Positions 4,556 to 39,099 of a DNA stretch of 41,452 bases are shown piece after piece; positions within the stretch are counted from its first letter, which is position 1; the number at the start of each line of letters is the position of its first letter. The notes under the pieces were generated by a model. The model saw only the letters and a list, made by a program, of their open reading frames with translations, was not told the DNA's origin and did no database searches. The DNA is from Pseudomonadota bacterium (GTDB taxonomy: Bacteria; Pseudomonadota; Gammaproteobacteria; Burkholderiales; Thiobacillaceae), in the NCBI GenBank assembly GCA_030653935.1, contig JAURYL010000029.1, positions 1 to 41,452 on the forward strand. The letters are read 5' to 3'. Both the position numbers and the translations under genes were made by a program.

Positions 4556-6297
4556 AGCACTCGGGCAAGGCCAACACCATGCTGCACCTCGACCTGCAAC
4601 GTTGGCGCATGCGTCTGACCCTGGCATTGTTGTTCGGCGGTTTTGCCGCCCTGTCGGTGCGCGCCGTCTACCTGCAAGCCTGGCACAACGACTTCCTCAA
4701 CGAGGAAGGCGAAAAGCGGGTGCAGCGGGTGGCGCCCATCCCCGCCTATCGCGGCGTCATCAGCGACCGTCGCGGCGAGCCGGTGGCGGTGAGCACGCCG
4801 GTGGAAACGATCTGGATCAACCCCAAGCAGGCCAACCCCGGCGCGGCGGAGATTCAATCGCTGGCCAATATCCTGGATCGTGACCCGGATCAGATCGCGC
4901 GCCTGTTCGCCGACAAGAGCAAGGGTTTCGTCTATCTGGAGCGGCTGCTGGAGCCGCCCAAGGCGCGTCAGATCATGGCCTTGAACCTGGAAGGCGTGTT
5001 CAGCAAGCCGGAGTACCGCCGCTATTACCCCGCAGGCGAAGTCATGGGGCACGTGCTGGGCATCACCAATCTCGACGACAAGGGCCAGGAAGGCGTCGAA
5101 CTGGCGTTCCAGTCGTGGCTGGCCGGCGAGGCGGGGGCGCAGCGGGTGGTGCGCGACCGTCTCGGCAACGTGGTGGAAGTGCTGGAGCAGATCAAGCCGC
5201 CGAAGCCGGGGCGCGATCTGGTGCTGAGCCTGAATCAGCACATCCAGTATCTCGCCTATCGTGAGCTTTCCGAGGCCGTGGAAAAACACAAGGCCCGCGC
5301 CGGCAGCGTGGTGGTGCTCGACGCGCGCACCGGCGAGATTCTGGCCTTGGCCAATACCCCCAGCTTCAATCCCAACAGCCGCGCCACCTACACCCCGGAA
5401 CGGGTGCGCAACCGCGCCGTGACCGATGTGTTTGAGCCGGGTTCCACCATGAAGCCATTCCTGGTGGCCGCCGCCCTCGATGCCAGGGTGGTGTCCCCGG
5501 AGACCACCATCGACACCGGCCCGGGCTGGTTCATCGTCGGCGACAAGAAAATCACCGATACCCATGCCAAGGGCGTGATGACCGTCGCCCAGTCGATCCA
5601 GGTGTCCAGCAATGTCGCCGCCGCCAAGATCGCCCTGGAAATGCGCGGCGAGGACTACTGGCGCCTGCTCAGCAACGCCGGTATCGGCGCGCGGCCGAAT
5701 TCGGGTCTACCCGGCGAGGTCAGCGGCCGGCTGCGTCCCTTCGATACCTGGCGCCCAATCGAGAAAGCGACCATGGCTTACGGCCACGGGCTTTCGGTAA
5801 GCCTGTTGCAACTGGCGCATGCCTACACCGCCTTCGCCAACGACGGCGTCATGCCGGCGCTGACCACGCTGCGCCGGGAAAGCGTCGCCACCGGGACGCG
5901 GGTGATGTCCGTCGACGGCGCCCGGAAAATGTTGCCGATGCTGGAAATGGTCACCCAGAACGGGGGAACCGCGCCGATGGCCAGGGTGGCGGGCTATCGC
6001 GTCGCCGGCAAGACCGGTACCGCGCACAAGTTCAAGGTCAACGGCGGCGGCTACGAGCCGGACAAATACGTCAGCTCCTTCGTCGGCCTGGCGCCGGCCT
6101 CGAACCCGCGCCTGGTGGTGGCGGTGATGATCGATGAACCGGGTGGCCGCGATTACTACGGTGGCCTGATCGCCGCCCCCATCTTTTCCCGGGTGATGGC
6201 GGGCGCCCTGCGTTTCATGGCGGTGCCGCCGGATACCTCGTTCAACAGCGACAGCGCCCCGCCGGGCGAGGCGCCTGTGGTCGCGGAGTCGGTGTGA
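4552..6297 (+). CDS. ftsI: Peptidoglycan D,D-transpeptidase FtsI (PBP3)
   Basis: A 581-residue class B penicillin-binding protein that cross-links septal peptidoglycan with FtsW. One N-terminal membrane anchor (about residues 19-41, LTLALLFGGFAALSVRAVYLQ) precedes the pedestal domain (AYRGVISDRRGEPVAVS; YYPAGEVMGHVLGITN; GQEGVELAFQSWLAGE). The transpeptidase domain has all three catalytic motifs: SxxK at S298-K301 (GSTMKPF), SxN at 352-354 (SSN) and KTG at 487-489 (AGKTGTAHK). The length matches proteobacterial FtsI. The start ATG at 4552 overlaps the ftsL stop by 4 nt. The end overlaps the murE start by 1 nt (TGATG). Confidence 0.96.
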   Translation: MKHSGKANTMLHLDLQRWRMRLTLALLFGGFAALSVRAVYLQAWHNDFLNEEGEKRVQRVAPIPAYRGVISDRRGEPVAVSTPVETIWINPKQANPGAAEIQSLANILDRDPDQIARLFADKSKGFVYLERLLEPPKARQIMALNLEGVFSKPEYRRYYPAGEVMGHVLGITNLDDKGQEGVELAFQSWLAGEAGAQRVVRDRLGNVVEVLEQIKPPKPGRDLVLSLNQHIQYLAYRELSEAVEKHKARAGSVVVLDARTGEILALANTPSFNPNSRATYTPERVRNRAVTDVFEPGSTMKPFLVAAALDARVVSPETTIDTGPGWFIVGDKKITDTHAKGVMTVAQSIQVSSNVAAAKIALEMRGEDYWRLLSNAGIGARPNSGLPGEVSGRLRPFDTWRPIEKATMAYGHGLSVSLLQLAHAYTAFANDGVMPALTTLRRESVATGTRVMSVDGARKMLPMLEMVTQNGGTAPMARVAGYRVAGKTGTAHKFKVNGGGYEPDKYVSSFVGLAPASNPRLVVAVMIDEPGGRDYYGGLIAAPIFSRVMAGALRFMAVPPDTSFNSDSAPPGEAPVVAESV

Positions 6298-7829
6298 TGG
6301 AGCATTTCGGATTTCGGATTTCGGATTTCGGATCCGCGGCGGCGCTGGTCGACCGGTTGCGCGCGCTGGCGCCCGGCGCGCGCGCTATGACCGCCGACAG
6401 CCGGCGCGTCGGTGAGGGCGACGTGTTCCTCGCCTATCCCGGCGGCGCGCACGATGGCCGCGACCATATTGCCGCCGCCATCGCCGCCGGCGCGGCGGCC
6501 GTGCTCTGGGAGCCCTCCGGCCATGACTGGAAGGGCGGAGCAGTCGCCAATCTGCCCGTGGAAAATCTGAAGGAACAGGCCGCCGGCCTCGCCGCCGCCT
6601 GGTATGGCAACCCCTCGCAACAACTCTGGATGACCGGCATCACCGGCACCAACGGGAAGACCTCTGTATCGCAGTGGCTGGCCGCCGCCTGGACCACACT
6701 CGGGCGCAAGACGGCGGCCATCGGCACCATCGGCAACGGCTTCCCGGGCGAAGTGCTTCGCGCTGCAAGCAGCGCTCCTACCGCGCCCAGCCACACCACG
6801 CCGGACGCGGTCAGCCTGCAAGCTCTGTTGGCCGACTATCGCGACGCCGGCGCGCGCGGCGTGGCGATGGAAGTTTCCTCGCACGGTCTGCATCAAGGGC
6901 GTGTCGCCGGCGTGGCGTTTGACGTCGCGGTGCTGACCAATCTGACTCAAGACCATCTCGATTACCACGGCGACATGGCCAGCTATGCCGCCGCCAAGGC
7001 GCGCCTGTTCGCCTGGCCCGGCCTGAAATGGGCGGTGCTGAACAGCGACGACGAACTCGGCGCGTCACTGGAAAAACAATTACGTGGCGGCGCTACCCAG
7101 GTATTGAGCTACGGATTGCATTCCGGGGAGGTCTGCGCGCAGCGCCTGCAATCCGGTCGCGACGGCTTGCGCATGGAGATCGTCACGCCCTGGGGCATGG
7201 GTGAACTGGCCAGCCCGCTGCTCGGCGAATTCAATGCCTATAACCTGCTCGCCGCTCTGGCCGCGTTGTTGGCTGGCGATGTGCCGCTGGCCGACGCGCT
7301 GGCCGCGCTGGAAAAGGTCGAAGCGGTGCCGGGGCGGATGCAGCCGGTAGGAGGCCCGCTTGCGGGCCGAACAGGCGAAGGAGCACCCACCGTGATCGTC
7401 GATTTCGCCCATACCCCGGATGCCCTGGAAAAGGTGCTGGCGACGCTGAAGCCGCTCACCCGTGGCCGGCTGATCTGTGTTTTCGGTTGTGGCGGTGGCC
7501 GCGACACCGCCAAGCGGCCGTTGATGGGCGCGGCGGTGGCGGCGCGCGCCGATGTCGCCATCGTTACCAGCGACAACCCGCGCCATGAAGACCCCGCCCA
7601 CATCATCGCCGACATCCTCGCCGGCATGCCGCCGGGGCAGGACGCCATCGTCGACCGTCGCGCCGCGATCCACAAAGCCATTCAATCCGCCGGCCCCGAC
7701 GACATCGTGGTGCTGGCCGGCAAGGGGCATGAGCCCTATCAGGAAATCAACGGGATCAGAAGCCCGTTCTCGGATCGTGATGAGGCGCTCAAGGCGCTTT
7801 CAGAAAGGAATCAACGTGCAGCTACATGA
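6297..7829 (+). CDS. murE: UDP-MurNAc-tripeptide synthetase (meso-DAP adding)
   Basis: A 510-residue Mur ligase that adds meso-diaminopimelate to UDP-MurNAc-L-Ala-D-Glu in the cytoplasm. The ATP-binding loop GITGTNGKT is at residues 114-122, and the C-terminal domain has SDNPRHEDP, whose DNPR motif marks meso-DAP rather than lysine specificity. FAHTPDAL and VLAGKGHEPYQE are also present. ATG 6297 overlaps the ftsI stop; GTG 6294 is an alternative. Three stretches are foreign to the family: the N-terminus is encoded by four ATTTCGG heptamers (6304-6331), and two GTAGGAG-led hairpins are translated at 6757-6782 (about residues 154-162) and 7347-7371 (about 351-358). All keep the frame. The catalytic motifs are intact, so activity is likely retained. 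Confidence 0.95.
   Translation: MEHFGFRISDFGSAAALVDRLRALAPGARAMTADSRRVGEGDVFLAYPGGAHDGRDHIAAAIAAGAAAVLWEPSGHDWKGGAVANLPVENLKEQAAGLAAAWYGNPSQQLWMTGITGTNGKTSVSQWLAAAWTTLGRKTAAIGTIGNGFPGEVLRAASSAPTAPSHTTPDAVSLQALLADYRDAGARGVAMEVSSHGLHQGRVAGVAFDVAVLTNLTQDHLDYHGDMASYAAAKARLFAWPGLKWAVLNSDDELGASLEKQLRGGATQVLSYGLHSGEVCAQRLQSGRDGLRMEIVTPWGMGELASPLLGEFNAYNLLAALAALLAGDVPLADALAALEKVEAVPGRMQPVGGPLAGRTGEGAPTVIVDFAHTPDALEKVLATLKPLTRGRLICVFGCGGGRDTAKRPLMGAAVAARADVAIVTSDNPRHEDPAHIIADILAGMPPGQDAIVDRRAAIHKAIQSAGPDDIVVLAGKGHEPYQEINGIRSPFSDRDEALKALSERNQRAAT
6304..6331 (+). repeat. ATTTCGG heptamer x4 at the start of murE
   Basis: Four perfect tandem copies of ATTTCGG encode the first residues after the start (HFGFRISDF). 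Two perfect copies plus a degenerate one lie just after the ftsZ stop at 20995-21014. Because the unit is 7 nt, the four-copy array is 28 nt, so a change of one unit would shift the frame relative to ATG 6297. Confidence 0.85.
6757..6782 (-). repeat. GTAGGAG-type REP hairpin inside murE
   Basis: Read on the minus strand, GGTAGGA is followed by a perfect 7-2-7 hairpin, GCGCTGC-TT-GCAGCGC (6760-6775). On the plus strand it is translated as part of VLRAASSAPT, a segment that MurE orthologues do not have between the NGFPG and TTPDAV motifs. Confidence 0.8.
7347..7371 (+). repeat. GTAGGAG-type REP hairpin inside murE (second copy)
   Basis: GTAGGAG followed by a perfect 7-2-7 hairpin GGCCCGC-TT-GCGGGCC at 7353-7368, ending in GAA. 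It is translated as VGGPLAGRT just before the conserved VIVDFAHTPDAL motif. It has the same architecture as the copy at 6757-6782 but different stem bases. Confidence 0.85.
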
Positions 7830-9159
7830 AGCCGCCCACGCCCTGAACGCCGTCGCCATCGGCGCGGACGTGGCATTCGATATCGTCTCCAGTGACAGCC
7901 GGGCGCTGCCGCGAGGCTGCCTGTTCGTCGCCCTCAAGGGGCCGCGATTCGACGGCCATGGCTATGCCGCCCAGGCACTGGCGCAAGGCGCCGCCGCCGT
8001 CATGGTGGAGGCCGGCGCCGGGCTGGAAGTCGCGCCAGCGCTGGTGGTCGACGACAGCCGTCTCGGCCTCGGCCGTCTCGCCGCCTGGCACCGCGCGCGG
8101 ATGCCGGCGAAGATTGCCGCCATCACCGGCAGCAACGGCAAGACCACGGTGAAGGAAATGCTCGCCGCCATCCTCGCGGCGGAAGCGGGCGAAGGCGCGG
8201 TGCTGGCCACCGTCGGCAATCTCAACAACGACATCGGCGTGCCCCTGACCTTGCTGCGGCTGACACCGGCGCACCGCTATGCAGCCATCGAGATGGGGAT
8301 GAACCACCTCGGGGAAATCGCCTATCTGACCGAACTCGCGCGCCCGGATGTGGCGCTGGTCAACAACGCCCTGCGCGCCCATCTGGAAGGCCTCGGCAGC
8401 GTCGAGGCGGTGGCGCGCGCCAAGGGCGAGATTTTCTCGGGGCTCAAGGATGACGGCATCGCCATCATCAACGCCGACGACCCCCACGCCGACTACTGGC
8501 GCGGTCTGGCCGGCCAGCACCAGGTGCTGAGCTTCGGCAACGCGGCAACCGCTGATGTGCGGCTCATGCCCGACGCCGTGCGCTTCATCCTCGAAACTCC
8601 GATGGGGCGGATCGACACCGTGCTGCGCGTGCCCGGCGAACACAATCGACGCAACGCCGCCGCCGCCGCGACCGTCGCCCTGGCGCTGGGTACCCCGGTG
8701 GCTGCCGTGGCGCGCGGCCTCGCCGCCTACAGCGGCAGCAAGGGCCGTTTGCAGGTCCATGACTGCATCCTCGGCGCCACCCTGATCGACGACAGCTACA
8801 ACGCCAATCCCGATTCCGTGCTCGCCGCCATTCAGGTGCTGGCGGCGCGGCCGGGGCGGCGCATCCTGGTCCTCGGCGACATGGGCGAGCTCGGGCCGGA
8901 GGCCGCCGCGCTGCATCGCGAAGTGGGCGAGCGCGCCCGCAAGGCCGGCATCGACCGCCTGCTCTGTCTCGGCGAGCTGTCGATCAACGCGGCCCAGGGG
9001 TTTGGCCAGGGTGCCATGCACTTCGAGCGCATCGAGGAAATGCTGGCGGAAATCGAATGCGCCCTCGGCGTCGACGTGACTGTGTTGGTGAAGGGTTCCC
9101 GCTTCATGAAGATGGAACGTGTGGTGCAGTCGTTTGTGGAGAACCAGCAATGCTCCTGA
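7816..9159 (+). CDS. murF: UDP-MurNAc-tripeptide:D-Ala-D-Ala ligase
   Basis: A 447-residue Mur ligase that completes the UDP-MurNAc-pentapeptide by adding D-Ala-D-Ala. Visible features are SSDSRALPRGCLFVALKG (substrate domain), the ATP loop AITGSNGKTTVKE (about residues 101-113), NNDIGVPLTLL, AAIEMGMNHLGEI, and DDSYNANPDS followed by LGDMGELG in the C-terminal domain. The start is GTG 7816: AGAAAGGA lies 7 nt upstream and VQLHEAAHAL is a normal N-terminus. It overlaps murE by 14 nt. Unlike murE and murD, no repeat is seen inside this gene, but one sits immediately after it. The C-terminus VENQQCS is encoded by bases that are copied again at the mraY start. Confidence 0.95.
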   Translation: MQLHEAAHALNAVAIGADVAFDIVSSDSRALPRGCLFVALKGPRFDGHGYAAQALAQGAAAVMVEAGAGLEVAPALVVDDSRLGLGRLAAWHRARMPAKIAAITGSNGKTTVKEMLAAILAAEAGEGAVLATVGNLNNDIGVPLTLLRLTPAHRYAAIEMGMNHLGEIAYLTELARPDVALVNNALRAHLEGLGSVEAVARAKGEIFSGLKDDGIAIINADDPHADYWRGLAGQHQVLSFGNAATADVRLMPDAVRFILETPMGRIDTVLRVPGEHNRRNAAAAATVALALGTPVAAVARGLAAYSGSKGRLQVHDCILGATLIDDSYNANPDSVLAAIQVLAARPGRRILVLGDMGELGPEAAALHREVGERARKAGIDRLLCLGELSINAAQGFGQGAMHFERIEEMLAEIECALGVDVTVLVKGSRFMKMERVVQSFVENQQCS

Positions 9160-9171
9160 TGCCCACCAACC

Positions 9172-9231
9172 CCGTAGGGTGCGCCGCGCGCACCGATTCA
9201 CGCTCGACGGTGCGCGCGGCGCACGCTACGG
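9172..9231. repeat. Palindromic repeat between murF and mraY
   Basis: Arms of 24 bp at 9172-9195 and 9208-9231 are reverse complements with one mismatch, with a 12-nt loop between them. Each arm begins with the CCGTAGGGTGCG-type end. It fills the only real gap in the run of Mur genes and is bracketed by ATGCTCCTGATG (9150-9161) and ATGCTCTTGATG (9260-9271), which differ at one base. Confidence 0.8.
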
Positions 9232-9259
9232 CGGTAAGCGAACGTGAGGGTTGTCAACC

Positions 9260-10345
9260 ATGCTCTTGATGTTCGCCCAGTGGCTCGGCCATGACATCCG
9301 CCTGTTCAACGTCTTCAACTACATCACCCTGCGCGCGGTGCTGGCGGCGCTGACGGCGCTGCTCATCTCCTTCGTCGTCGGCCCCTGGATGATCCGCAAG
9401 CTCACCCATCTGAAGGTCGGGCAGCCGGTGCGTGATGATGGCCCGCAAACACATCTGGTCAAGGCTGGTACGCCGACCATGGGCGGCGCCCTGATTCTTG
9501 CCGCCGTGGCCGCGACGACCCTGCTGTGGGCCGACCTCACCAACAAATATGTCTGGATCGCCCTGGTTACTCTGGTCGGTTTTGGCGCCATCGGCTGGGT
9601 GGACGATTGGCGCAAGGTGGTGGAAAAAAATCCACGAGGGCTGGCTTCGCGCTGGAAGTACTTCTGGCAATCGGTGATCGGTTTCTCCGTCGCCGGTTGG
9701 CTGGCCTGGTCCGCCGACCTGCCGGCGCAGACCGAACTGATCGTGCCCTTCTTCAAGCACATCGTCATGCCGCTGGGGGTGACGGGCTTTGTGCTGCTGG
9801 CCTACTTCGTCATCGTCGGCACCAGTAACGCGGTGAACCTGACCGATGGCGCCGATGGCCTCGCCATCCTGCCGACGGTGATGGTGGCCGGCGCCCTGGC
9901 CATCTTCGCCTACGTGGCCGGCCACGCAGTGTTTTCCAAGTATCTCGGCCTGCCGCATATCCCCGGCGCTGGTGAACTGGTGGTGTTCTGCGCCGCCCTG
10001 GTCGGCGCCGGCCTGGCCTTCCTCTGGTTTAACGCCTATCCGGCCGAAGTCTTCATGGGCGACGTCGGCGCTCTGGCCCTGGGTGCCGCGCTCGGCGTGG
10101 TGGCGGTGATCGTGCGCCAGGAAATCGTGCTGTTCATCATGGGCGGTGTCTTCGTCGCCGAAACCGTCTCGGTGATGCTGCAAGTGGGTTCCTTCAAGTT
10201 GCGCGGGAAAAGGGTGTTCTTGATGGCGCCCATCCATCATCACTTCGAGAAGAAGGGCTGGAAGGAAACCCAGGTGGTGGTGCGTTTCTGGATCATCAGC
10301 ATGATTCTCGTGCTGATCGGCCTTTCAACCTTGAAGCTGCGTTGA
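9260..10345 (+). CDS. mraY: Phospho-MurNAc-pentapeptide translocase
   Basis: A 361-residue polytopic membrane enzyme that transfers phospho-MurNAc-pentapeptide to undecaprenyl phosphate, forming lipid I on the cytoplasmic face. It has about ten transmembrane helices and all catalytic signatures: [19 protein letters not shown] (the DD metal motif), [31 protein letters not shown] and [12 protein letters not shown]. The length equals the family norm. ATG 9260 is chosen because MLLMFAQWL is the usual N-terminus and GTGAGGG lies 9 nt upstream. A TTG at 9251 is less likely. The spacing to murD is only 7 nt. Its start region is duplicated upstream inside the murF 3' end. Confidence 0.97.
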
Positions 10346-10352
10346 AACCGCG

Positions 10353-11942
10353 ATGACAACGAAACCTCCGGCGAATTCAGCCCGCAAGCGCGCCTCCTAC
10401 CTCGAAGGCCGCAAGGTCCTGGTGGTCGGTCTCGGCGACACCGGCGCGGCCTCTGTGCGCTGGTTGCTGGAGCGCGAGGCGCTGGTGCGCGGCACGGATA
10501 CCCGCGCCGAGCCGCCGCACGCGCAACATCTGCGTGAGGCATTTCCGGAAGTGGCGTTGACGTTGGGCGGCTTCGTGGCCGCTGATTTTTCCTGGGCCGA
10601 CCTGATCGTCGCCAGTCCCGGCGTCGCCCTCGCCACGCCCGAGCTGCAAGCGGCCTTGGCGGCGGGCAAGGAAGTGGTGGGTGACGTGGAGTTGTTCGCA
10701 CGCGCCATAAACGGCCCCCACGCTCACATTCGTTCGCTGCCCCCCGAGGGGGCGCCAAGCCCGACTTGGGGCGGCCCGGCGTCGGGCAGCGGCACCCGGG
10801 CCAAGGTCATCGCCATCACCGGCTCCAATGGCAAGAGCACGGTCACCAGTCTGGTTGGCCATCTCTGCGCGGCCGTCGGTCTGGATACCGTGGTCGCGGG
10901 AAATATCGGCCTGCCGGTGCTGGAGGCGTTGGAGAACCGTGAAACTATCATGCGCGACCCCGACGTCTGGGTCTTGGAACTATCCAGTTTCCAGCTGGAA
11001 ACCACCAGCAGCCTGCATCCTGACGCCGCCACCGTGCTCAACATCTCGCAGGACCACATGGATCGCTATGTCGGCCTGGGCGATTACGCCGCCGCCAAGG
11101 CGCGTATTTTCGCGGGCGAGGGCGTGCAGGTGCTGAACCGGGATGATCCGATGGTGATGGCGATGGCCAGGCCAGGTCTGCCGCAATGGACATTCGGCAT
11201 CACCGACGTCCCGCCCCTTGCTCCCGGCGTCTTCGGTCTCACCACGCGCAAGGACCGCCTCTGGTTGTGCGAGGGCGAGGAGGCGCTGCTGCCGGTGGAC
11301 AAGCTGCCCATCGCCGGCCTGCACAACGCCGCCAATGCCCTGGCCGCGCTGGCGCTATGCCACGCCATCGGCCTGCCCTACGCCGGCCTGGTTCCCGCGC
11401 TGAAAACATTCGAGGGTCTACCGCACCGGGTGCAGCGGGTGGCGGAAGTGGCGGGGCGCACGTTCTATGACGATTCCAAGGGCACCAACGTCGGCGCCAC
11501 CGTGGCCGCCTTGCTGGGCTTCACCGCGCCGGTGGTGCTGATTGCCGGCGGTGACGGCAAGGGCCAGGATTTTTCCCCGCTGAAAGAGGCGGTGAACAAC
11601 GTTCGCGCCATGGTGTTGATCGGCCGTGACGCGCCGTTGCTGGAACAGGCCGTAAACGGGGCCTGTCCGGTGGCGCGCGCGGAAACCATGGAAGAAGCGG
11701 TGGGCCTGGCATTCCAGCTGTCGCAGCCGGGCGACGCGGTGCTGCTGTCGCCGGCCTGCGCCAGTTGGGACATGTTCCGCAATTACGCGCATCGCGCCGA
11801 GGTATTCATCGGCGCCGTGGAGGTACTCAAGGCCATCGGTGGAGAGTGCCGCCGCCAGCAGGAGCGTCGCATTCGCGGCGCCACGGCGCAGAGCGATGAA
11901 CGGCGGCGACGTGAGCGCAGAAGGTCGCACCATGTTTCATAA
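10353..11942 (+). CDS. murD: UDP-MurNAc-L-alanine:D-glutamate ligase, with extra inserts
   Basis: A 529-residue Mur ligase that adds D-glutamate. That is well above the family's usual ~450-490. Core motifs are present: KVLVVGLGDTGAASVRWL, the ATP loop AITGSNGKST (about residues 151-160), LELSSFQLET, NISQDHMDRY, DDSKGTNVGAT and LSPACASWDMF. Two repeats account for part of the excess. A REP hairpin at 10380-10400 gives the N-terminal ARKRASY. A C-rich element at about 10715-10803 inserts roughly 30 residues (PHAHIRSLPPEGAPSPTWGG and on) just before the ATP loop. The C-terminus after EVLKAIGG is an unusual Arg-rich tail (RRQQERRIRG...RRRERRRS) that overlaps the ftsW start by 11 nt. Confidence 0.94.
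   Translation: MTTKPPANSARKRASYLEGRKVLVVGLGDTGAASVRWLLEREALVRGTDTRAEPPHAQHLREAFPEVALTLGGFVAADFSWADLIVASPGVALATPELQAALAAGKEVVGDVELFARAINGPHAHIRSLPPEGAPSPTWGGPASGSGTRAKVIAITGSNGKSTVTSLVGHLCAAVGLDTVVAGNIGLPVLEALENRETIMRDPDVWVLELSSFQLETTSSLHPDAATVLNISQDHMDRYVGLGDYAAAKARIFAGEGVQVLNRDDPMVMAMARPGLPQWTFGITDVPPLAPGVFGLTTRKDRLWLCEGEEALLPVDKLPIAGLHNAANALAALALCHAIGLPYAGLVPALKTFEGLPHRVQRVAEVAGRTFYDDSKGTNVGATVAALLGFTAPVVLIAGGDGKGQDFSPLKEAVNNVRAMVLIGRDAPLLEQAVNGACPVARAETMEEAVGLAFQLSQPGDAVLLSPACASWDMFRNYAHRAEVFIGAVEVLKAIGGECRRQQERRIRGATAQSDERRRRERRRSHHVS
10380..10400 (-). repeat. GTAGGAG-type REP in the murD N-terminus
   Basis: Read on the minus strand it is GTAGGAGGC followed by GCGC-TT-GCGGGC, the same family as 7347-7371 but with an imperfect stem. 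It encodes ARKRASY between the murD start and the nucleotide-binding KVLVVGLG motif, so it lengthens the N-terminus without breaking the frame. Confidence 0.7.
10715..10803. repeat. C-rich/G-rich repeat element inserted in murD
   Basis: Begins CCCCCACGCTC, runs through TTCGTTCGCTG and ends CCCCCCGAGGGGG (10740-10752), followed by two further short hairpins, CCAAG-CCCGA-CTTGG and GCCCG-GCGT-CGGGC. From memory, similar C-run/TTCG/G-run repeats occur widely between genes in Betaproteobacteria. Here it is translated as a proline- and glycine-rich loop upstream of the MurD ATP-binding site. Confidence 0.65.
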
Positions 11943-13092
11943 CGCGGCCCTCAAGCGTACCGCCTTGACGCCCTACGACTGGGGACTGGTGTTCGCCGCC
12001 ACCGGGCTGCTGGTGATCGGCCTGGTGATGGTGTTTTCGGCCTCCTCGTCGGTCGCCGAGGCCAAGTCGGCCAGCAAGGAGCACACCTATTACCTGGTGC
12101 GCCATGCCATCTATCTGGTGATCGGGCTCGGCGCCGGCTATGCCGCCTTCCAGATCCCGACGCCGCTGTGGCAGAAAATGTCGCCGCTGCTGTTCATCGC
12201 CGGCGCGGTGTTGCTGGTGCTGGTACTGATTCCCTTCATCGGCAAGGACGTCAACGGCAGCCGGCGCTGGATTCCGCTGGGGCCCCTGGGCAATTTCCAG
12301 CCCTCCGAGTTCATGAAATTCGCCACCATTCTCTATGCCGCCGATTACACCGTGCGCAAGGCGGCGCACATGCAAAACCTGGCGCGCGGTTTCCTGCCGC
12401 TGTTCCTGGTGATGCTGGGCGTGGGCAGCGCGTTGCTGCTGGAGCCGGATTTCGGCGCCTTCGTGGTCATCATCAGCATCGCGCTGGGCGTGTTGTTTCT
12501 GGGCGGCCTCAATGCCCGCCTGTTCTTCGGTTTGATCGCCCTGCTCGGTGTGGGTTTCGTGTTGCTGGTGATGACGTCGGAGTACCGAATGGCGCGGGTG
12601 ACCAGCTATCTCGACCCGTTCAAGGACCCCTATGGCGCCGGCTATCAGCTCTCGCATGCCTTGATCGCCCTCGGTCGTGGTGAGATCACCGGCGTCGGCC
12701 TTGGCGACAGCGTCGAAAAATTGTTCTACCTGCCCGAGTCCTATACCGATTTCCTGCTTGCCGTGATCGGCGAGGAACTCGGACTGATCGGCGTACTGGC
12801 GGTGATCGGCCTGTTTGCCTGGCTGACCTGGCGCGCCTTCTCCATCGGTTGGCAGGCCAGCCTGATGGGACGCAACTATGCCGCCCTGGTGGCGCAGGGT
12901 GTCGGCGTCTGGATGGGGCTGCAATCGTTCATCAACATGGGCGTCAATCTCGGCCTGCTGCCGACCAAGGGACTGACCCTGCCGCTGATGAGCTACGGCG
13001 GCTCCGGTCTCGTCGCCAACTGCCTGGCCCTGGCGGTGTTGCTGCGTGTGGATTACGAGAACCGCTGCCTGATGAAGGGGAAGCGGGCATGA
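11932..13092 (+). CDS. ftsW: Septal peptidoglycan glycosyltransferase FtsW
   Basis: A 386-residue SEDS protein that polymerises lipid II at the septum together with FtsI. About ten transmembrane helices are evident. Family motifs include MVFSASS after TM1, [19 protein letters not shown] (the SEDS signature, about residues 107-125), [48 protein letters not shown] and the C-terminal [14 protein letters not shown] 11932 has AGAAGG 7 nt upstream. An upstream in-frame ATG at 11896 would add 12 residues. It overlaps the end of murD by 11 nt and the murG start by 4 nt (ATGA). Confidence 0.95.
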
Positions 13093-14270
13093 ACATTCAG
13101 GGGCAAGGTACAAGGGGCAAGGAGCAAGGAGCGCAGGCGGCCGATGGTCGCCTTGCCCCTTGCCCCTTGCCACTTGCCTCCCGTACAGCTTTGATCATGG
13201 CCGGCGGCACCGGCGGCCATGTGATGCCGGCGCTGGCGGTGGCCGAGGCCCTGCGCGGCGAGGGCTGGCGCGTGGTCTGGTTGGGCACCCATGCCGGCAT
13301 GGAGGCGAAGCTGGTTCCGGCCAAAGGTTTCGACATGGCCTGGGTGAAGGTGGCGGGAGTGCGCGGCAAGGGTCTGCTCACCAAGCTGTTGCTGCCGTTC
13401 AACCTGCTGCACGCCTTCTGGCAATCGGCGCGCGCCATTTTCCGTGAGCGCCCGGATGTGGCGCTGGGTCTGGGCGGTTATGTTGCTTTCCCTGGCGGCA
13501 TGATGGCGGTGCTGCTGAACAAGCCGCTGGTGATCCATGAACAGAATGCCGTCGCCGGCCTCACCAACAAGATCCTGGCGCATATCGCCGACCGCGTGCT
13601 GTTGGGCCTGCCTTTGCAGGAGCAAGGGGCAAGGGGCAAGGGGCAAGGCGCAATGGCATCGGGTGAATGGGTCGGCAACCCGGTGCGGCCGGAAATCGGC
13701 GCCCTGGCGGCGCCGGCGCAACGCCTGGCCGGACGCGAAGGCCCGCTGCGTTTGCTGGTGATCGGCGGCTCGCTGGGGGCGGCGGCCTTGAATGAAATGA
13801 TTCCGCGAGCGCTGGCGCTGCTGCCGCTGGAACAACGCCCCGTGGTGCGGCATCAGTCCGGCGCGCGCCACCTCGAAGTGCTCAAGCGCAACTATGAAAG
13901 TGCGGAAGTCGCGGTCGAGCCGCTGGCCTTCATCGACGACATGGCCGAAGCCTATGCCTGGGCGGATGTGGTGATCTGCCGCGCCGGTGCACTGACCGTG
14001 GCGGAAATCGCCGCCGCCGGCCTGCCCGCCCTGTTCGTGCCCTTCCCCTTCGCGGTGGATGACCACCAGACCGCCAACGCCGCTTTCCTGGCCGACCAGG
14101 GCGCGGCTTGGTCGATGCAACAGAAAACCCTCAGCCCGGAAAAATTGGCCGAATGGCTGAGTGGACTCACCCGCGCGGATCTGCTCGCTCGCGCGCAGAA
14201 AGCGCGCGCGCTGGCAAAGCCGGACGCGACCGCGCGAGTGGCGCAAGTGCTGAAGGAGTTGGCGAAATGA
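13089..14270 (+). CDS. murG: Lipid II synthase MurG, with repeat-encoded inserts
   Basis: A 393-residue GT28 glycosyltransferase that adds GlcNAc to lipid I at the inner face of the membrane. Core motifs are intact: [20 protein letters not shown] (about residues 34-53), the [12 protein letters not shown] acceptor region, [23 protein letters not shown] and the donor site [19 protein letters not shown]. The family usually starts about 5 residues before IMAGGTGGH. Here an extra ~33-residue leader rich in Gly, Gln, Lys and Pro is encoded by an inverted pair of GGGGCAA heptamer arrays. A second, unpaired array lies at 13620-13648 and adds [12 protein letters not shown] before [13 protein letters not shown] 13089 overlaps the ftsW stop; an internal ATG at 13197 could serve as a shorter start. 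Confidence 0.94.
13100..13181. repeat. Inverted GGGGCAA heptamer arrays in the murG leader
   Basis: The left arm at 13100-13131 consists of GGGGCAAG-type heptamers with degenerate copies. The right arm at 13151-13181 consists of CTTGCCC-type heptamers, so the arms are complementary and can fold over a ~19-nt spacer. The element lies wholly within the murG frame, immediately after the start codon. Confidence 0.8.
13620..13648 (+). repeat. GGGGCAA heptamer array inside murG
   Basis: Three perfect tandem copies of AGGGGCA plus partial ends, in the same orientation as the left arm at 13100-13131 but with no inverted partner. Translated as [11 protein letters not shown]. It lies in the interdomain region ahead of the conserved VGNPVR motif. 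Confidence 0.8.
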
Positions 14271-15769
14271 AACATAAGGTCAACCGCATCCACTTCGTCG
14301 GCATCGGCGGCGCCGGCATGAGCGGCATCGCCGAAGTGCTGATCAATCTGGGCTACAAGGTGTCCGGCAGCGATGGCGCCGACAACGCGGTGACCCAGCG
14401 TCTGGCCGGAATGGGCGCGACCGTGTTCAAAGGACATGCTGGCGAAAATATCCAGGGCGCCAATGTGCTGGTGATTTCCAGCGCCATCAAGGAAGACAAC
14501 CCGGAAGTGCAAGCCGCGCGCGCGGCGCGCATTCCGGTGGTGGCGCGCGCCATGATGCTGGCCGAGTTGATGCGCTTCAAACAGGGCATCGCCATCGCCG
14601 GCACCCACGGCAAGACCACCACCACCAGCCTGATCGCCAGCGTGCTGAACGAGGCCGGGCTGGACCCGACCTATGTGATCGGCGGCAAGTTGTTGGCGTC
14701 CGGCGCCAACGCCCGTCTGGGAACAGGCGAATGGCTGGTGGCGGAGGCGGACGAGTCGGACGCTTCCTTCCTGTATCTGTCGCCGGTGGTGTCCATCGTC
14801 ACCAATATCGACGCCGACCACATGGAAACCTACGGCCACGATTTTGAGCGTCTGAAATCGGCCTTTGTGGAATTCCTGCATCGCCTGCCGTTCTGGGGCA
14901 TGGCCATCCTCTGCGCCGACGATCCGGTGGTGCGCGAGCTGCTGCCGCGCATCGACAAGCCGGTGATGACCTACGGCACCGGCGAGGATTGCGCCATCCG
15001 CGCGGTGAATATCCGCGCCGAGGACGGCCGCATGTGCTTCACCGCCATCCGCAACGGGGTGAAATCCGCCGTCGACATCACCCTCAACATGCCGGGCATG
15101 CACAACGTACTCAATGCCCTCGCGGCGGTGGCCGTGGCCTGGGAACTGCAAGTGCCGGATGCCGCGTTGCAACGGGCGCTGGCGAATTTCAGTGGTGTCG
15201 GCCGCCGCTTCCAGCGCTATGGGGAAATCACCTTGCCCGCTGCGCGGGCAGGGGCAAGGGGCAAGGGGCAAGGGGCAAGGAAACCCCAACCCGATCAGCC
15301 GCACGACGGTTTTCCCTTGCCCCTTGCCCCTTGCCCCTCGTCCGCAGGACGAACCTTCACCCTGATCGACGATTACGGCCATCACCCGGTGGAAATGCAG
15401 GCCACCCTGAATGCCGCGCGCGGCGCCTTCCCCGGCCGCCGTCTGGTGCTGGCGTTCCAGCCGCACCGCTATACCCGCACCCGCGATCTGTTCGAGGACT
15501 TCGTGCGGGTGCTGTCGCAGGCCGACGCGGTGCTGCTGACCGAGGTCTACGCCGCCAGCGAGCAACCGATCATCGCCGCCGATGGTCGCGCCCTCTCCCG
15601 CGCCCTGCGCGTGGCCGGCAAGGTGGAGCCGGTGTTCGTCGAGGACGTGAATGAGCTTCCCGCCGCCCTGGCCGACTTCGTGCGCGATGGCGACGTGGTG
15701 CTGAGCATGGGCGCCGGCTCCATCGGCCAGGTGCCGGCCAGACTCGCGGAAATGGGAGCGCCGGCATGA
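14267..15769 (+). CDS. murC: UDP-MurNAc:L-alanine ligase, with a ~36-residue insert
   Basis: A 500-residue Mur ligase that adds L-alanine, the first residue of the stem peptide. Motifs: [17 protein letters not shown] (substrate-binding N-terminus), the ATP loop [14 protein letters not shown] (about residues 111-124), [34 protein letters not shown] and [15 protein letters not shown]. The family is normally about 460-470 residues. The excess is a single insert at about residues 324-361, between RYGEITLP and [11 protein letters not shown], encoded by a GCCCGC hairpin plus paired GGGGCAA and TTGCCCC heptamer arrays. The insert lies at the start of the C-terminal domain in a loop before the conserved DYGHHP. 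ATGA overlaps join it to murG and murB. Confidence 0.95.
15235..15338. repeat. Inverted GGGGCAA heptamer element inside murC
   Basis: A short hairpin GCCCGC-TGC-GCGGGC (15235-15249) is followed by four GGGGCAA units (15251-15278), a 38-nt spacer, and the inverted array of three TTGCCCC units (15317-15337). The layout matches the murG leader element: tandem heptamers as the two arms of one large hairpin. The element keeps the murC frame open throughout. Confidence 0.85.
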
Positions 15770-17697
15770 CCACGCCGCGCGGCATCCTGGAACACAACGT
15801 GGCCATGAGCGGCTATACCAGCTGGCGGGCTGGTGGGCCGGCGGATCGCCTTTACAAGCCGGCAGACCTGGAAGATTTGTGCGCCTTCCTGGCGACCGTG
15901 CCGACGGACGAGCCGGTGCATTTCGTCGGCCTCGGCAGCAACCTGCTGGTGCGCGACGGCGGAGTGCGCGGCACGGTGATCCATGTCCATGGCGCGCTGA
16001 AGGAACTGCGTTTCGAGGACCGTTGCGCGAGCCAGCGCCCGGAGAACATGGCGAAATTCGGTGTGGTCTACGCCGAGGCGGGCGTGGCCAGCCCCAAACT
16101 GGCGCGCTTCGCCGCCAGCCACAACCTCACCGGCGCGGAATTTCTCGCCGGCATACCCGGCACTGTCGGCGGTGCTCTGGCGATGAACGCGGGTTGTTAT
16201 GGCCACGAGACCTGGGCATACGTGTGCCAGGTGTTGACCGTGGACCACCAGGGCAAAACCCACAAGCGGACCCCGCGCGAGTTCCAGGTGGGCTATCGCC
16301 ATGTCGACCCCAACGGGCGGCATGATGAGTGGTTCCTGGCCGCCTGGTTCATGTTCCCGAAAGGCGATGGCGAGGCGGCGCGCGTGGAAATCAAACGCCT
16401 GCTGGAACGGCGCATGGCCAGCCAGCCGCTCGACCTGCCCAACGCCGGTTCGGTGTTCCGCAATCCGCCGGGGGATTACGCCGCCCGCCTGATCGAATCC
16501 TGCGGCATGAAGGGCATGCGTATCGGCGATGCCCAGGTTTCGGAAAAACATGCCAATTTCATCGTCAACCTGGGCCAGGCCAAGGCGAGCGACATCGAAA
16601 CCCTGATCGAGACGGTGCGGGAAAAAGTGAAGGAAAACAGTGGCGTCGAGTTGATCCGGGAAGTGCGAATTATTGGCGAACATGACGCGCGGGCGTCCTC
16701 GCCAGCTGGCCGGCCGCAGGTCGGTGTGATGGGATCGGCTTGGGAACGGGCTCAGGCCGGCTGGAAGCCGGCGCTACAAGATTTCGGCAAAGTCGCGGTG
16801 ATGTTCGGTGGCTCCTCCGCCGAGCGCGAGGTTTCCCTCAAGAGCGGCGCGGCGGTGTTGGCCGCCCTGCAAAGCCGGGGTGTCGACGCGCACGCCTTCG
16901 ATCCCGCCGCGCGAGCCCTGGAGGACTTGAAGAAGGAAGGGTTTCAGCGCGTCTTCATCGCCCTGCATGGCCGTGGTGGCGAGGACGGCACCCTGCAAGG
17001 GGCGTTGACCCTGATGGGCATTCCCTACACCGGAAGCGGTGTCCTGGCTTCCGCCCTGGCGATGGACAAGTGGCGCAGCAAGTTGCTCTGGCGGGCGGCC
17101 GGCTTGCCGATTCCTGACTATGCCCTGCTCGATGCCGCCTCCGATTACGCCGCCGTGGCCGAACGTCTGGGATTGCCTCTGTTCGTGAAGCCCGCGCGCG
17201 AGGGTTCCAGCATTGGCGTGATCAAGGTGAAACACGCCGCCGATATGGCCGCCGCCTATCAGGAAGCGGCGCTACATGATGATTTGGTGCTGGCGGAACA
17301 GGCGATGAGCGGTGGCGAGTACACCGTCGCGGTGCTCGGCGAGGACGCCGAACTGAAGGCCTTACCGTCCATTCGCATCGTGCCGGCGACCGAGTTCTAC
17401 GACTACGAGTCCAAATATCTGCGAGACGACACTCGTTACCTCTGTCCAAGCGGCCTCTCCGAGGCGGCGGAGGCGGAGATGCGCGAGCTGGCGCTACGCG
17501 GCTTCCGCGCGCTCGGTTGCCGTGGTTGGGCGCGAGTGGACTTCCTGCTCGACGCCGCCGGTCGCCCCTATCTGCTGGAAGCCAATACCGCGCCCGGCAT
17601 GACCGACCACAGTCTGGTGCCGATGGCGGCGCGCGTGGCCGGCCTCGAATTCGCCGATCTTTGTGTTCGCATCCTGGAGTTGGCCCATGTGGAATGA
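15766..17697 (+). CDS. murB-ddl: Fused UDP-N-acetylenolpyruvoylglucosamine reductase / D-Ala-D-Ala ligase
   Basis: A single 643-residue open frame carries two enzymes. Residues about 1-305 are MurB, the FAD/NADPH reductase making UDP-MurNAc: [55 protein letters not shown], the catalytic-serine motif NAGSVFRNP, and [13 protein letters not shown]. Residues about 341-643 are Ddl, an ATP-grasp ligase: [53 protein letters not shown] and [17 protein letters not shown]. The ~35-residue linker is encoded by about 100 nt with no stop and includes the translated REP at 16754-16778 (QAGWKPALQ). Separate Ddl translation from ATG 16729 is possible, though only a weak AGG precedes it. The ends overlap murC (ATGA) and ftsQ (11 nt). 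Confidence 0.9.
16754..16778 (-). repeat. GCCGGCT REP in the murB-ddl linker
   Basis: GCCGGCT-GGA-AGCCGGC followed by GCTACA. Its 23 bp from 16756 are identical to 360-382 downstream of dapF. It is a single copy here and translates as AGWKPALQ. The flanking bases 16683-16753 show no similarity to either enzyme and probably represent former intergenic DNA. Confidence 0.85.
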
Positions 17698-18469
17698 CCC
17701 GGTAGCGCTCAATCGCCTCAGCCGTTTGATCCTGGCAGTCACCCTCTTGTTCACGGTGTGGACGGTGGGGCGGGCGGCGGCGGAGAAACTGGCGCCGTTC
17801 TGGCAAGTGCAGGTGGTCGGTGTCGGCAGCGAGGAAACGTATGTGGCGGCGAAGGAGGCTCTGGGCAAGTTGCGCGGCGGCTTCTTCGCGCTCGATCTGG
17901 TGGCCGCGCGCGCTGAATTCGAGCGCTTGCCCTGGGTGCGGCACGCGGAAATTCGCCGGGTCTGGCCGGGGCGCCTGGCGATCATCCTGGAAGAGCACCG
18001 CGCGGCGGCCGCCTGGAACGACCGCGCCTTGCTCAATACCCACGGCGAGGTGTTCGCGGTCGTGGCGATGGATCAATACCTCGGCCTGCCGCGCCTCTAC
18101 GCGCCGGAAGGCACCGAGCGGGAAACAGCGCGCCGCTACGGCGAGTTCGTGGCGGTGGTGAAACCACTCGGCATGCGCGTCGAACAGGTCGTGGTGACGA
18201 CGCGGCAGTCCTGGCGGGTGCGCCTACAGGGCGGCAAGTCGGGCGCGGGCAACGGTGTCGGTGGTGTCCTGGTGGAACTGGGACGCGATCATCTCTCCGA
18301 CCGCCTCGCCCGCTTCGCCCGTTTCTATCCGCAGGCGGTGGAGTCGATGGGGCCGATTGCCCGCGCCGACATGCGCTATCCCAACGGTTTCGCGGCGCAA
18401 GTGAAGGGCGGCCCGGTAGGAGGCCAACCCATGGGCCGAAAAATGGCTAAGGACGTAAACAAGGCATGA
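17687..18469 (+). CDS. ftsQ: Cell division protein FtsQ
   Basis: A 260-residue bitopic divisome protein that scaffolds FtsB and FtsL. A short cytoplasmic N-terminus and one transmembrane helix (about residues 8-30, [18 protein letters not shown]) precede the POTRA domain ([60 protein letters not shown]). The beta domain follows, with [16 protein letters not shown] and [11 protein letters not shown]. The end is unusual: after the conserved [16 protein letters not shown] it continues with [15 protein letters not shown], encoded by a GTAGGAG-type repeat at 18416-18440. ATG 17687 overlaps ddl by 11 nt and has GGAG upstream. The stop overlaps ftsA (ATGA). Confidence 0.93.
18416..18440 (+). repeat. 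GTAGGAG-type REP variant in the ftsQ tail
   Basis: GTAGGAGGCC, then AACCCAT, then GGGCCGAA. Both ends match the copy at 7347-7371, but the loop is longer and the stem shorter. It is translated as GGQPMGR near the FtsQ C-terminus, beyond the last conserved residues. Confidence 0.7.
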
Positions 18470-37226: not shown

Positions 37227-37622
37227 GTGTCGGCGCCCTGTGACGTCGACAAGCTGCGGGAGGTCGTTTTTCATCCCTTGCCACCGGCGCAGGTCGAGCA
37301 GGCGCTGGGGGTACTCGCAGATATCCAGGGGCTGGAAGTTTCCCGAACCGGGCCGCTAGCGCTGCAAGTCGCCTACCGCATCAGCGACCACTGCCTCCAG
37401 GATATTGAAACGCTGCTCAGCCAGCAGGGTTTCCACCTGGAAGTTTCCTTGCTGATCCGGGTCAAGCGGGCGTTGGTCTATTACTGCGAGCATGTGCAGC
37501 GGGAAAACATGCACAAGCCCGAGGTGCAGACCAAGAAGTACATGCCGTCCATGGAGGCCTGGGAAAAGCACCCGCACGGCGACCATGACGAGACGCCGAC
37601 CGAGTGGCGGCAGTACAAATAA
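37227..37622 (+). CDS. Conserved hypothetical protein
   Basis: A 131-residue soluble protein that I do not recognise. GTG 37227 is supported by AAGGAG at 37215-37220, inside the end of ctpA. It looks like a small alpha/beta domain (VFHPLPPAQVEQALGVLADIQGLEVSRTGPLALQVAYRI; DIETLLSQQGFHLEVS), with a helical stretch RVKRALVYYCEHVQRENM and a His/Asp-rich, disordered C-terminus (HPHGDHDETPTEW). The beta-alpha-beta pattern resembles an ACT/HMA-like fold, but that is a guess. It is placed between ctpA and the MoeB-like gene and is likely in the same operon. Confidence 0.75.
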   Translation: MSAPCDVDKLREVVFHPLPPAQVEQALGVLADIQGLEVSRTGPLALQVAYRISDHCLQDIETLLSQQGFHLEVSLLIRVKRALVYYCEHVQRENMHKPEVQTKKYMPSMEAWEKHPHGDHDETPTEWRQYK

Positions 37623-37630
37623 GAACAAGT

Positions 37631-37706
37631 CGGCAGTTCGCAGTTTGCGGGAGGCGATCCCCCGGGCTGCCAACCGCCAACCGCCAACCGCCAACTGCGA
37701 ACTGCG
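37631..37706. repeat. Inverted heptamer element (CGCAGTT/AACTGCG, AACCGCC)
   Basis: CGGCAGTT-CGCAGTT at 37631-37645 is complementary to two AACTGCG heptamers at 37693-37706. Just inside the right arm are three AACCGCC heptamers (37672-37692). The arrangement, heptamers as arms of one hairpin, parallels the murG and murC elements but with different unit sequences. It fills the gap before the MoeB-like gene and ends 9 bp before its start. Confidence 0.8.
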
Positions 37707-37715
37707 AACTATCTC

Positions 37716-38462
37716 TTGAACGACTCCCAACTCCTCCGTTATTCCCGCCACATTCTGCTTGATCAGGTGGGTATCGCCGGGCAGGAAGCCCTGCTGGCGG
37801 CGCATGCCCTGATCATCGGTGCCGGCGGGCTCGGCTCGCCGGTGGCGCTCTACCTGGCCGCCGCTGGTGTCGGGCGCATTACCCTGGCGGATCACGATGT
37901 GGTTGACCTCACCAATCTGCAACGCCAGATCGCCCACAACCTTGCCAGTGTTGGGCAAAACAAGGCGCATTCCGCCGCTGGGCGAATGCGGGCGATGAAT
38001 CCGGATGTTCAGGTGATTGAAACGCCTGTCCGCCTGGAAGGCGAACAACTCGATGCCGCCATCGCCGCCGCTGATGTGGTGCTCGACTGTTCCGACAACT
38101 TTGCCACCCGCCATGCCGTCAACCGTGCTTGCGTGCTGCACCGCAAGCCCCTGGTCTCCGGCGCGGCGGTGCGTTTCGATGGACAGGTTGCGGTATTCGA
38201 CCTCCGTCATGATGCGGCACCCTGTTACGCCTGCCTGTTTCCCGAGCATGCCCAGGACGCGGAAATGCGCTGCGCGGAGTTTGGTGTGTTCGCGCCCCTG
38301 GTCGGCGTGGTGGGCGCGATGCAGGCGTTGGAAGCCTTGAAACTCCTGATCGGCATCGGCGAAAGCCTGTCCGGCCGCCTGTTGTTGTTCGATGCGCTTG
38401 CCGCTGATTGGCGCGCCATCCGCCTGAAACGCGATAGCGGTTGCGAGGCGTGTCGTAGTTGA
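37716..38462 (+). CDS. MoeB/ThiF-type adenylyltransferase
   Basis: A 248-residue E1-like enzyme that adenylates the C-terminal glycine of a ThiS- or MoaD-type sulfur carrier. The ATP-binding IIGAGGLGSPVALYLAAAGVG is at about residues 33-53. The catalytic DxDxVDLTNLQRQI is represented by DHDVVDLTNLQRQI, and DCSDNFATRHAVNRAC is the carrier-binding segment. Zinc ligands are CYACLFP and CEAC near the C-terminus. The length suits MoeB without a rhodanese domain. The only available start is TTG 37716, with no Shine-Dalgarno, since the bases ahead of it belong to the heptamer element. MoeB and ThiF cannot be told apart from sequence alone. Confidence 0.9.
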   Translation: MNDSQLLRYSRHILLDQVGIAGQEALLAAHALIIGAGGLGSPVALYLAAAGVGRITLADHDVVDLTNLQRQIAHNLASVGQNKAHSAAGRMRAMNPDVQVIETPVRLEGEQLDAAIAAADVVLDCSDNFATRHAVNRACVLHRKPLVSGAAVRFDGQVAVFDLRHDAAPCYACLFPEHAQDAEMRCAEFGVFAPLVGVVGAMQALEALKLLIGIGESLSGRLLLFDALAADWRAIRLKRDSGCEACRS

Positions 38463-38922: not shown

Positions 38923-39099
38923 TGTAGGAGCGCCGCTCGCGGCGCGATGGCTCCGGCAAGCGGCACTGGGGTTGCCGGCGGTCCCTCCCAGATTCGGGCC
39001 GCAAGCGGACCCTCCCAGATTCGGGCCGCAAGCGGTCCCTCCCAGATTCGGGCCGCAAGCGGTCCCTCCCAGATTCGGGCCGCAAGCGGTCCCTCCTAC
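38923..39099 (-). repeat. REP copy plus 27-bp tandem array derived from it
   Basis: At 38924-38945 GTAGGAG is followed by a perfect 7-2-7 hairpin GCGCCGC-TC-GCGGCGC on the plus strand. From 38980 four 27-bp copies (38980, 39007, 39034, 39061) and a partial fifth (39088-39099) follow, nearly identical except for one T-to-A in the second. Read on the minus strand each unit contains GGGACCGC-TT-GCGGCCCG and the outermost begins GTAGGAG, so the array appears to be REPs of the same family repeated head to tail. It has no unique spacers, so it is not a CRISPR. Confidence 0.85.

Follow-up and report, generated by a model that had tools for sequence, protein, structure and literature searches.

Short repeats of several unrelated kinds lie within the reading frames of a bacterial peptidoglycan operon, which raises the question of how they came to be there and how the host genes bear them. 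The stretch analysed here (the window) comprises 41,452 nucleotides and is contig C121 of a betaproteobacterial genome of 3.82 Mb in 135 contigs, hereafter G000. On its forward strand, positions 6297 to 18469 hold a tight dcw operon, murE-murF-mraY-murD-ftsW-murG-murC-murB/ddl-ftsQ. Of the 9 open reading frames (ORFs) in the series from murE to ftsQ, 6 bear repeats. These are heptamer arrays of GGGGCAA and of ATTTCGG, hairpins with GTAGGAG, which are repetitive extragenic palindromes (REPs) of the GTAG type, one GCCGGCT REP, and one C-rich element (Table 1). A first-pass annotation had named such repeats in murE, murD, murG, murC, murB-ddl, and ftsQ, and each of them lies where it had been placed. 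We searched 60 relatives, labelled G001 upward (their stretches carry the letter L), of which 22 share the genus of G000.

We consider it likely that tolerated in-frame copies of many repeat families persist in the Mur genes and that the same sites have been refilled. Under this scenario, unrelated short dispersed repeats (REPs of the GTAG and GCCGGC types, the C-rich element, pairs resembling miniature inverted-repeat transposable elements [MITEs], and inverted heptamer pairs) would keep entering the genomes of the genus. Most REP-like copies would survive between genes, and those hitting genes would usually be harmful and then lost. The multidomain Mur enzymes would supply tolerant positions, namely the MurG N-terminus, the tip of a MurC hairpin near residue 324, and linkers and loops of MurD, MurE, MurF, and MurB. 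An in-frame piece of about 7–72 residues would hang out there as a disordered loop, so that the copy persists, and the same positions would later be filled again by different repeats. Selection against the other copies, the way in which transposition proceeds, and the idea that the added peptides lack a function are parts of this scenario that we infer, and the presence of the inserted peptides in the protein is predicted from the open frames.

In-frame inserts in the Mur proteins

We took the dcw region from 40 relatives (some stretches end at contig ends), aligned the proteins gene by gene (each alignment having 33 to 41 rows), and recorded as inserts the pieces between core columns. At the corresponding places, the main inserts are missing from the relatives. 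The 35-residue piece of MurC is private to G000 among 41 aligned proteins, the others having a different sequence there or none. The C-rich insert of MurD, of 26 residues, occurs in 1 of 36 sequences and is private to G000 as well, and the MurE piece LRAASSAP is found in G000 only, 1 of 33. The repeats are mostly in-frame inserts, as the first-pass annotation had announced, and add about 7–35 residues each; one hairpin in MurD is doubtful.

The insertion sites had also been said to be loops or termini, and alignments to solved structures together with models place them in loops, linkers, or termini. The best solved MurC chain, 29zm_A, can be aligned as far as its residue 332 and then from 334 on; on the query side, the alignment stops at 323 and resumes at 361. 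In the MurC model this segment lies between strands 316–323 and 362–369, with a predicted local distance difference test (pLDDT) score under 50 at residues 332–354. The MurD insert sits between two stretches aligned to the solved MurD 8dp2, at query positions 122 and 149, just ahead of the P-loop. The solved Escherichia coli MurG, 1f0k, shows a gap of 11 residues opposite the internal array, which partly takes the place of a loop already variable among the relatives (mean pLDDT of 60 over residues 181–190 of the model); residues 1–18 of the same model score under 50. The models render the MurC insert as a disordered hairpin tip and the MurG insert as a disordered N-terminus. The MurC P-loop residues G112 and H114–T120 and the GGTGGH motif of MurG are invariant in the alignments. 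All host ORFs are open, and five of the six exceed the NCBIfam cut-off (MurE, MurD, MurG, MurC, and MurB with Ddl); FtsQ falls below that of its model, with 89.8 of 366 bits. The idea that repeats serve as a source of new protein loops is borne out as to shape, though not as to any use. Start codons being putative, the array residues at the N-termini of murE and murG may in part be untranslated.

Table 1. Repeat elements within the operon, and matching array positions in two close relatives.
Element and place	Position	Strand	Details
ATTTCGG heptamer array, directly after the murE start	6304..6333	+	4.3 copies (Tandem Repeats Finder, TRF); encodes ..HFGFRISDFG..; 11-residue N-terminal piece
GTAGGAG hairpin (GTAG-type REP) in murE	6756..6785 (stem scan 6758-6781)	-	Encodes LRAASSAP, 8 residues
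GTAGGAG hairpin in murE	7345..7372 (scan 7347-7370)	+	Encodes ..VGGPLAGRTG.., about 7-9 residues
Degenerate GTAGGAG hairpin, murD N-terminus	10376..10401 (scan 10378-10400)	-	From hairpin scan
C-rich element in murD	about 10713..10790	+	26 residues, GPHAHIRSLPPEGAPSPTWGGPASGS, between the N-terminal domain and the ATP-binding P-loop
GGGGCAA / TTGCCCC inverted heptamer-array pair, murG N-terminus	13099..13178 (arms 13099-13129/13151-13178)	+	About 22-25 residues
GGGGCAA array inside murG	13618..13653	+	Loop after strand 169-172
GGGGCAA / TTGCCCC inverted pair inside murC	15236..15345 (arms 15246-15280/15314-15343)	+	35 residues, 324-358
GCCGGCT REP, murB-ddl junction	16753..16778	-	Read through in a single 643-codon ORF, matched by the MurB as well as the Ddl model
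GTAGGAG hairpin near the ftsQ C-terminus	18413..18440 (scan 18416-18439)	+	About 9 residues
Unrelated inverted heptamer pairs at matching positions (G015 and G020)	L321/L347, L326/L359, L328/L349, L273 about 2354		

The GCCGGCT, GTAGGAG, and GGGGCAA repeats all recur elsewhere in the genome, as had been anticipated. Exact GCCGGCT..AGCCGGC pairs occupy 120 genomic sites (2 for the reversed-pattern control), and GGGGCAAGGGGCAAGG has 60 matches in ~25 places genome-wide (control 0); both frequencies are clearly above chance. We counted the GTAGGAG hairpins in a sample of 61 stretches with 851,400 bases, including 10,646 N, of which 86% is coding according to a home-made gene caller with relaxed overlaps. 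Of the 39 such hairpins with a stem, 6 belong to the window; the 33 others are intergenic (23), at a gene edge (8), or coding (2). They share with the GTAG REP superfamily a GTAG tag on one end of an imperfect palindrome of 20–40 nt and a high copy number that is chiefly intergenic. Searches for Y1_Tnp, the domain of the Y1 transposases (RAYTs) that would be the partners of such REPs, gave 5 matches in G000 and no match in G020. The 17-mer core of the C-rich element has three exact copies in G000 and is present in 10 of 61 genomes, all of one genus.

We measured the coding fraction of seven REP- or MITE-like families outside the window; the test left out four low-copy ones (C-rich, CGTAGGGCGGA, GTAGGGTGCGCC, and CCCGGATGCAG). 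Between 2 and 14 of the 26–67 copies of each family are fully coding, where 22–58 would be expected at random. That only 6–21% are fully coding in a sequence that is 86% coding implies that most REP-like gene hits were apparently lost. Since REP-type repeats are mainly intergenic, the intragenic ones look like surviving, tolerated in-frame copies.

The dcw genes and other operons

The dcw cluster is a hot region for inserts. Those of at least 8 residues were counted with one insert caller in up to 18 genomes; the counts exclude 10 core columns at either end of every alignment, and matches that score below a set minimum. The dcw genes (12 genes, 195 gene-by-genome rows, 81,076 residues) have 50 such inserts, whereas the nuo genes (12 genes, 210 rows, 79,928 residues) have 2. 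Both of these are repeat-like and lie in one gene, which we take from operon order to be that of NuoG, in G011 and G017. The leu/trp genes (13 genes, 207 rows, 72,222 residues) have 71 inserts, of which 63 are in two linker-rich proteins, presumably FimV- and DedD-like given their place in the operon, and 8 elsewhere. These two proteins spoil the leu/trp stretch as a clean control, and its counts are therefore given with and without them. In the same stretch, a gene that operon order suggested to be trpF was rejected as such; it encodes a membrane protein without Pfam match at 1e-5.

A repeat signature (heptamer periodicity, an inverted repeat of at least 9, or a family motif) is present in 31 of the 50 dcw inserts, 4 of the 63 in linker proteins, 2 of the 8 elsewhere in leu/trp, and both of those in nuo, compared with 84 of 1000 random segments matched to the dcw inserts. 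Within G000, the 6 element-bearing genes among the 9 from murE to ftsQ compare with 24 (strict rule) or 37 (lax rule) of the 716 other called genes, an enrichment with p of 2e-7 or 2e-6, respectively, uncorrected for the window having been picked for this feature. Outside the window, 14 GCCGGCT hits in genes satisfy the lax rule, and 2 of these satisfy the strict one too. The other element-bearing genes encode homologues of AceE, PepA, and IleRS, two restriction R-like proteins, a helicase, and a FAD enzyme.

Two arguments of the first-pass annotation lose their force here. A dense operon alone does not explain the inserts, because nuo is another long operon and is almost free of them. The keeping of the frame is not a telling feature either, because any survivor in a needed gene must keep it. 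We also rejected the notion that the elements are adapted to being read: for the nine window elements, same-letter shuffles often reach the observed number of open frames, with the exceptions of the ATTTCGG array (0.015) and, weakly, of the murC pair (0.092). That the elements are open in several frames is mostly due to their GC-richness. Among the distinct heptamer units from coding sites, 10 of 11 are stop-free on both strands, the exception being GTGATGG of G050, and so are 70% of random heptamers at 64% GC.

Several observations weigh against the persistence of tolerated copies as a full account. The filter that would keep only such copies is seen for the REP-like families and not for the heptamer arrays, which show no clear avoidance of genes: 9 of the 20 period-7 arrays in the sample are fully within called genes, 5 of these 9 being in the window (one of the 5 only through a hand-set murG start). 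The repeat signature is absent from 19 of the 50 dcw inserts. Tolerance alone gives no answer to the excess of the Mur genes over other soluble enzymes. Finally, the comparison involves two aligned control operons, of which nuo is rich in membrane subunits and an imperfect match, and the coding calls come from the home-made gene caller.

The same positions in related genomes

The start of murG holds different repeats in different relatives. We surveyed it by eye, leaving out G049 (without the P-loop motif) and G005, G008, G021, and G032 (without murG in the stretch). Relatives carry arrays of ATTTCGG, GGGAAAA, CAAGTCG, GGGAATG, GTGGCAA, or GAGTCGC after the murG ATG, and G050, from another family, has one of GTGATGG. 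A GTTGGGC pair in G011, a GCCGGC pair in G012, and a C-rich element in G056 are each followed by a later ATG. G001, G004, G006, G022, and others have no repeat after the ATG. The MurC tip holds different repeats in G000, G006, G008, and G021, and other extra sequence in G009, G045, and G050. The C-rich element is found in members of the genus, in more than one frame and in both directions, in MurC, MurD, MurE, MurF, and MurB; in G017, three tandem copies of it make up a 72-residue insert in MurC (L167 10474-10689).

Such recurrence could also arise at true insertion hot spots, if a transposase or a replication or repair process preferred certain DNA positions regardless of protein tolerance. 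The stretch that follows the murG ATG and overlaps the ftsW stop fits this, with repeats of many kinds in 10 or 11 of the 35 relatives with a readable start (by eye), as do the different heptamer units that G015 and G020 have at the same positions (see below). However, the later ATG in G011, G012, and G056 means that the repeat may just be intergenic there, and the positions that are hit are also those where a protein or spacer tolerates anything. We regard hot spots of this kind as rather unlikely.

The region upstream of murG holds one more element, of about 70–130 nt between ftsW and murG, in G012, G024, G025, and, as a variant, G031 (L162, L168, L169, and L171). It starts near TTTCGGTG(C/A)AGGCTAA, ends near GGCCGG(A/G)(G/A)CC, and adjoins a repeated ftsW end. 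Rfam searches at gathering scores gave no match in the window and the stretches of four relatives, the element at the ftsW 3' end included.

The relatives G015 and G020 allow a closer view of how sites change; a tree was used solely to judge which genomes are near to one another. The two are 95.3–96.6% identical over the dcw stretch and 90–98% over most other aligned pieces. Their arrays were compared in three homologous stretches and at loci from two exact probes, and tallied by hand. Of 25 array sites, 9 have the same unit, 9 a different unit, 5 are one-sided or decayed, and 2 are not comparable (L319 and L322). Because the first probe is biased towards places where one of the genomes has a GGGAAAC array, the ratio of 9 to 9 is not a rate. 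The different-unit sites include the murG N-terminus, within the reading frame, where L163 about 8551-8672 (G015) and L164 about 8548-8642 (G020) keep the two-armed pair with unrelated units. Further cases are given in Table 1; the array at L320, counted among the nine, is degenerate and could go either way. Five of the G020 replacements contain TAG, and all five lie between called genes; the in-frame murG site holds a stop-free unit. These five look like one mobile family because all have GTAGC as their core and carry a hairpin of type CGCGCCGAAGGCGCG in the centre. Elhai and colleagues are said to have described in 2008 small hairpin elements of Nostoc embedded in heptameric tandem repeats, which would resemble this central hairpin.

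These comparisons hint, tentatively, that inverted heptamer arrays may be rewritten in place: the two-armed architecture would stay while another unit, unrelated in sequence, takes the place of the old one, and this at a divergence of a few percent and even in the murG frame. If so, the process would recognise architecture and not sequence; it might be a template switch involving other arrays, a second insertion into a hot spot that is already filled, or a writer of unknown kind. Unit exchange also makes heptamer repeats testable, because pairs of close genomes can be scored for unit conservation versus exchange.

A preserved architecture with changing sequence is also what one would see if the paired arrays were kept as RNA or DNA hairpins in the dcw transcript, acting on translation or mRNA stability at gene starts, with their coding capacity incidental. 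The predicted RNA hairpins of the murC pair (-76.8 kcal/mol, z of -7.6) and of the murG N-terminal pair (-57.9 kcal/mol, z of -3.9) fold far better than shuffles, and the heptamer repeats of Xanthomonas and Nostoc are placed near ORF ends in the excerpted text of PMC4692102. Yet most members of the genus have, by eye, no heptamer array at the murG start (G001, G004, G006, and G022 are examples), the murC pair is mid-gene and not conserved, and for the C-rich element and the single REPs the folding is at best slightly superior to that of shuffles (z from +0.5 to -1.7). An RNA role is possible for the murC and murG pairs and, judging from these predictions, unneeded for the remaining elements; as the reason why the paired arrays are kept it seems to us improbable.

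Known systems and the remaining elements

Neither intragenic REPs nor paired heptamer arrays are new to the literature. Rickettsia palindromic elements (RPEs) are described, in the excerpts of PMC10969869 and PMC3733652, as lying in frame in genes of known function and adding tens of residues. The elements studied here likewise include palindromic pieces inserted relative to orthologues, with the frame kept and the host gene apparently intact (FtsQ below its cut-off). Compared with the RPEs by description, they differ in belonging to several sequence-unrelated families, heptamer arrays among them, in their betaproteobacterial host, and in that many lie in the peptidoglycan operon. According to the excerpted text of Di Nocera et al. 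(2013, PMC3733652), several species have intragenic REPs tagged with GTAG or CGTC, as well as dimers of 20–30 residues. Clusters of 43–82 residues are described there for Thauera and R. conorii, and two Xanthomonas have REPs at roughly one and the same recB site. Our GTAGGAG hairpins carry the same GTAG tag. That text stresses genes of DNA synthesis and repair, whereas here Mur genes are concerned and unrelated families meet at one site.

For the heptamers, the part of PMC4692102 at hand gives GGGAATC and GGGGA(C/T)T units in Xanthomonas and Nostoc, with 70 and 75 cases of two close convergent sites, some intragenic. Tandem 7-nt units, often in convergent pairs, are found here too, but that source has one unit type per group, and here there are several units per genome, and close relatives can have different ones at a given site. 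The G-rich make-up of GGGGCAA, GGGAAAC, and similar units hints at possible G-quadruplex formation. For Geobacter metallireducens, the excerpt of PMC2700814 gives 49 elements in which four heptanucleotides follow one another in tandem, some of them lying in genes and others between genes; that family has one consensus unit, unlike the several here. Heptanucleotides are given as the commonest repeat class in the portion of PMC4679880 available. Among the titles and abstract openings listed by literature searches, none dealt with repeat insertion in mur genes or with in-place exchange of heptamer units. That several families burden the peptidoglycan operon, that families mix at a single site, and that units are exchanged would thus be features not met in the literature searched. 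With them, peptidoglycan genes join the known cases of in-frame repeat insertion, and several repeat families in one genus provide a natural insertion-tolerance map of the Mur enzymes.

Some elements of the window are shared with other genomes, and the first-pass view of new insertions, which applies to the main MurC, MurD, and MurE inserts, does not extend to them. The ATTTCGG array at the murE N-terminus is also present in G019. The second MurE hairpin, encoding ..VGGPLAGRTG.., has a near-identical counterpart in G022 and a different sequence in G009. The C-terminal piece of FtsQ is similar in G008, G009, G017, and G022 and is a gap in G006, G011, and G019. The basic C-terminal tail of MurD was rejected as a new insert, being common to many members of the genus, and the hairpin at the murD N-terminus, a degenerate copy whose folding does not surpass that of shuffles, is doubtful as a net insertion.

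The sharing of the MurD tail, the FtsQ element, and one MurE loop within the genus might suggest that the Mur proteins inherited the repeat peptides from an ancestor, but the alignments refute this for the main inserts (those of MurC, MurD, and MurE are private or face unrelated sequence in relatives, and the inserts are missing from the solved chains that best match MurC, MurD, and MurG), which leaves it hardly any credence. Assembly or binning artefacts are just as implausible: most genomes are fragmented assemblies and the sample contains N, but independent genomes have the same class of insert at the same sites with frames intact, and the inserted pieces are below the usual read length.

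The REP at the murB-ddl junction lies in an ORF with parallels elsewhere. MurB and Ddl are in one reading frame both in the window (15766-17697, through the REP) and in G011 (L150 5630-7673), and an internal start for Ddl inside the shared frame is possible. In G022, a single open frame of 1450 codons from stop to stop (L149 532-4882) covers murE and murF.

Outside the operon, the window has a further inverted heptamer-like pair, of GTTCGCA and GCCAACC types, adjoining genes at 37621-37717, and a 27-nt tandem array of 4.4 copies at 38969-39103, with a degenerate GTAGGAG-type hairpin in each copy. L234 has nine near-identical GTAGGAGCGGACCGCGTCCGCGA hairpins over about 9.4 kb (about 4766-14100). 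In another contig of G000 (C127, L265 6277-6441), a CTGTCGGACTTTG pair of 165 nt with 20-nt inverted ends forms, in frame, 55 residues of a predicted membrane protein.

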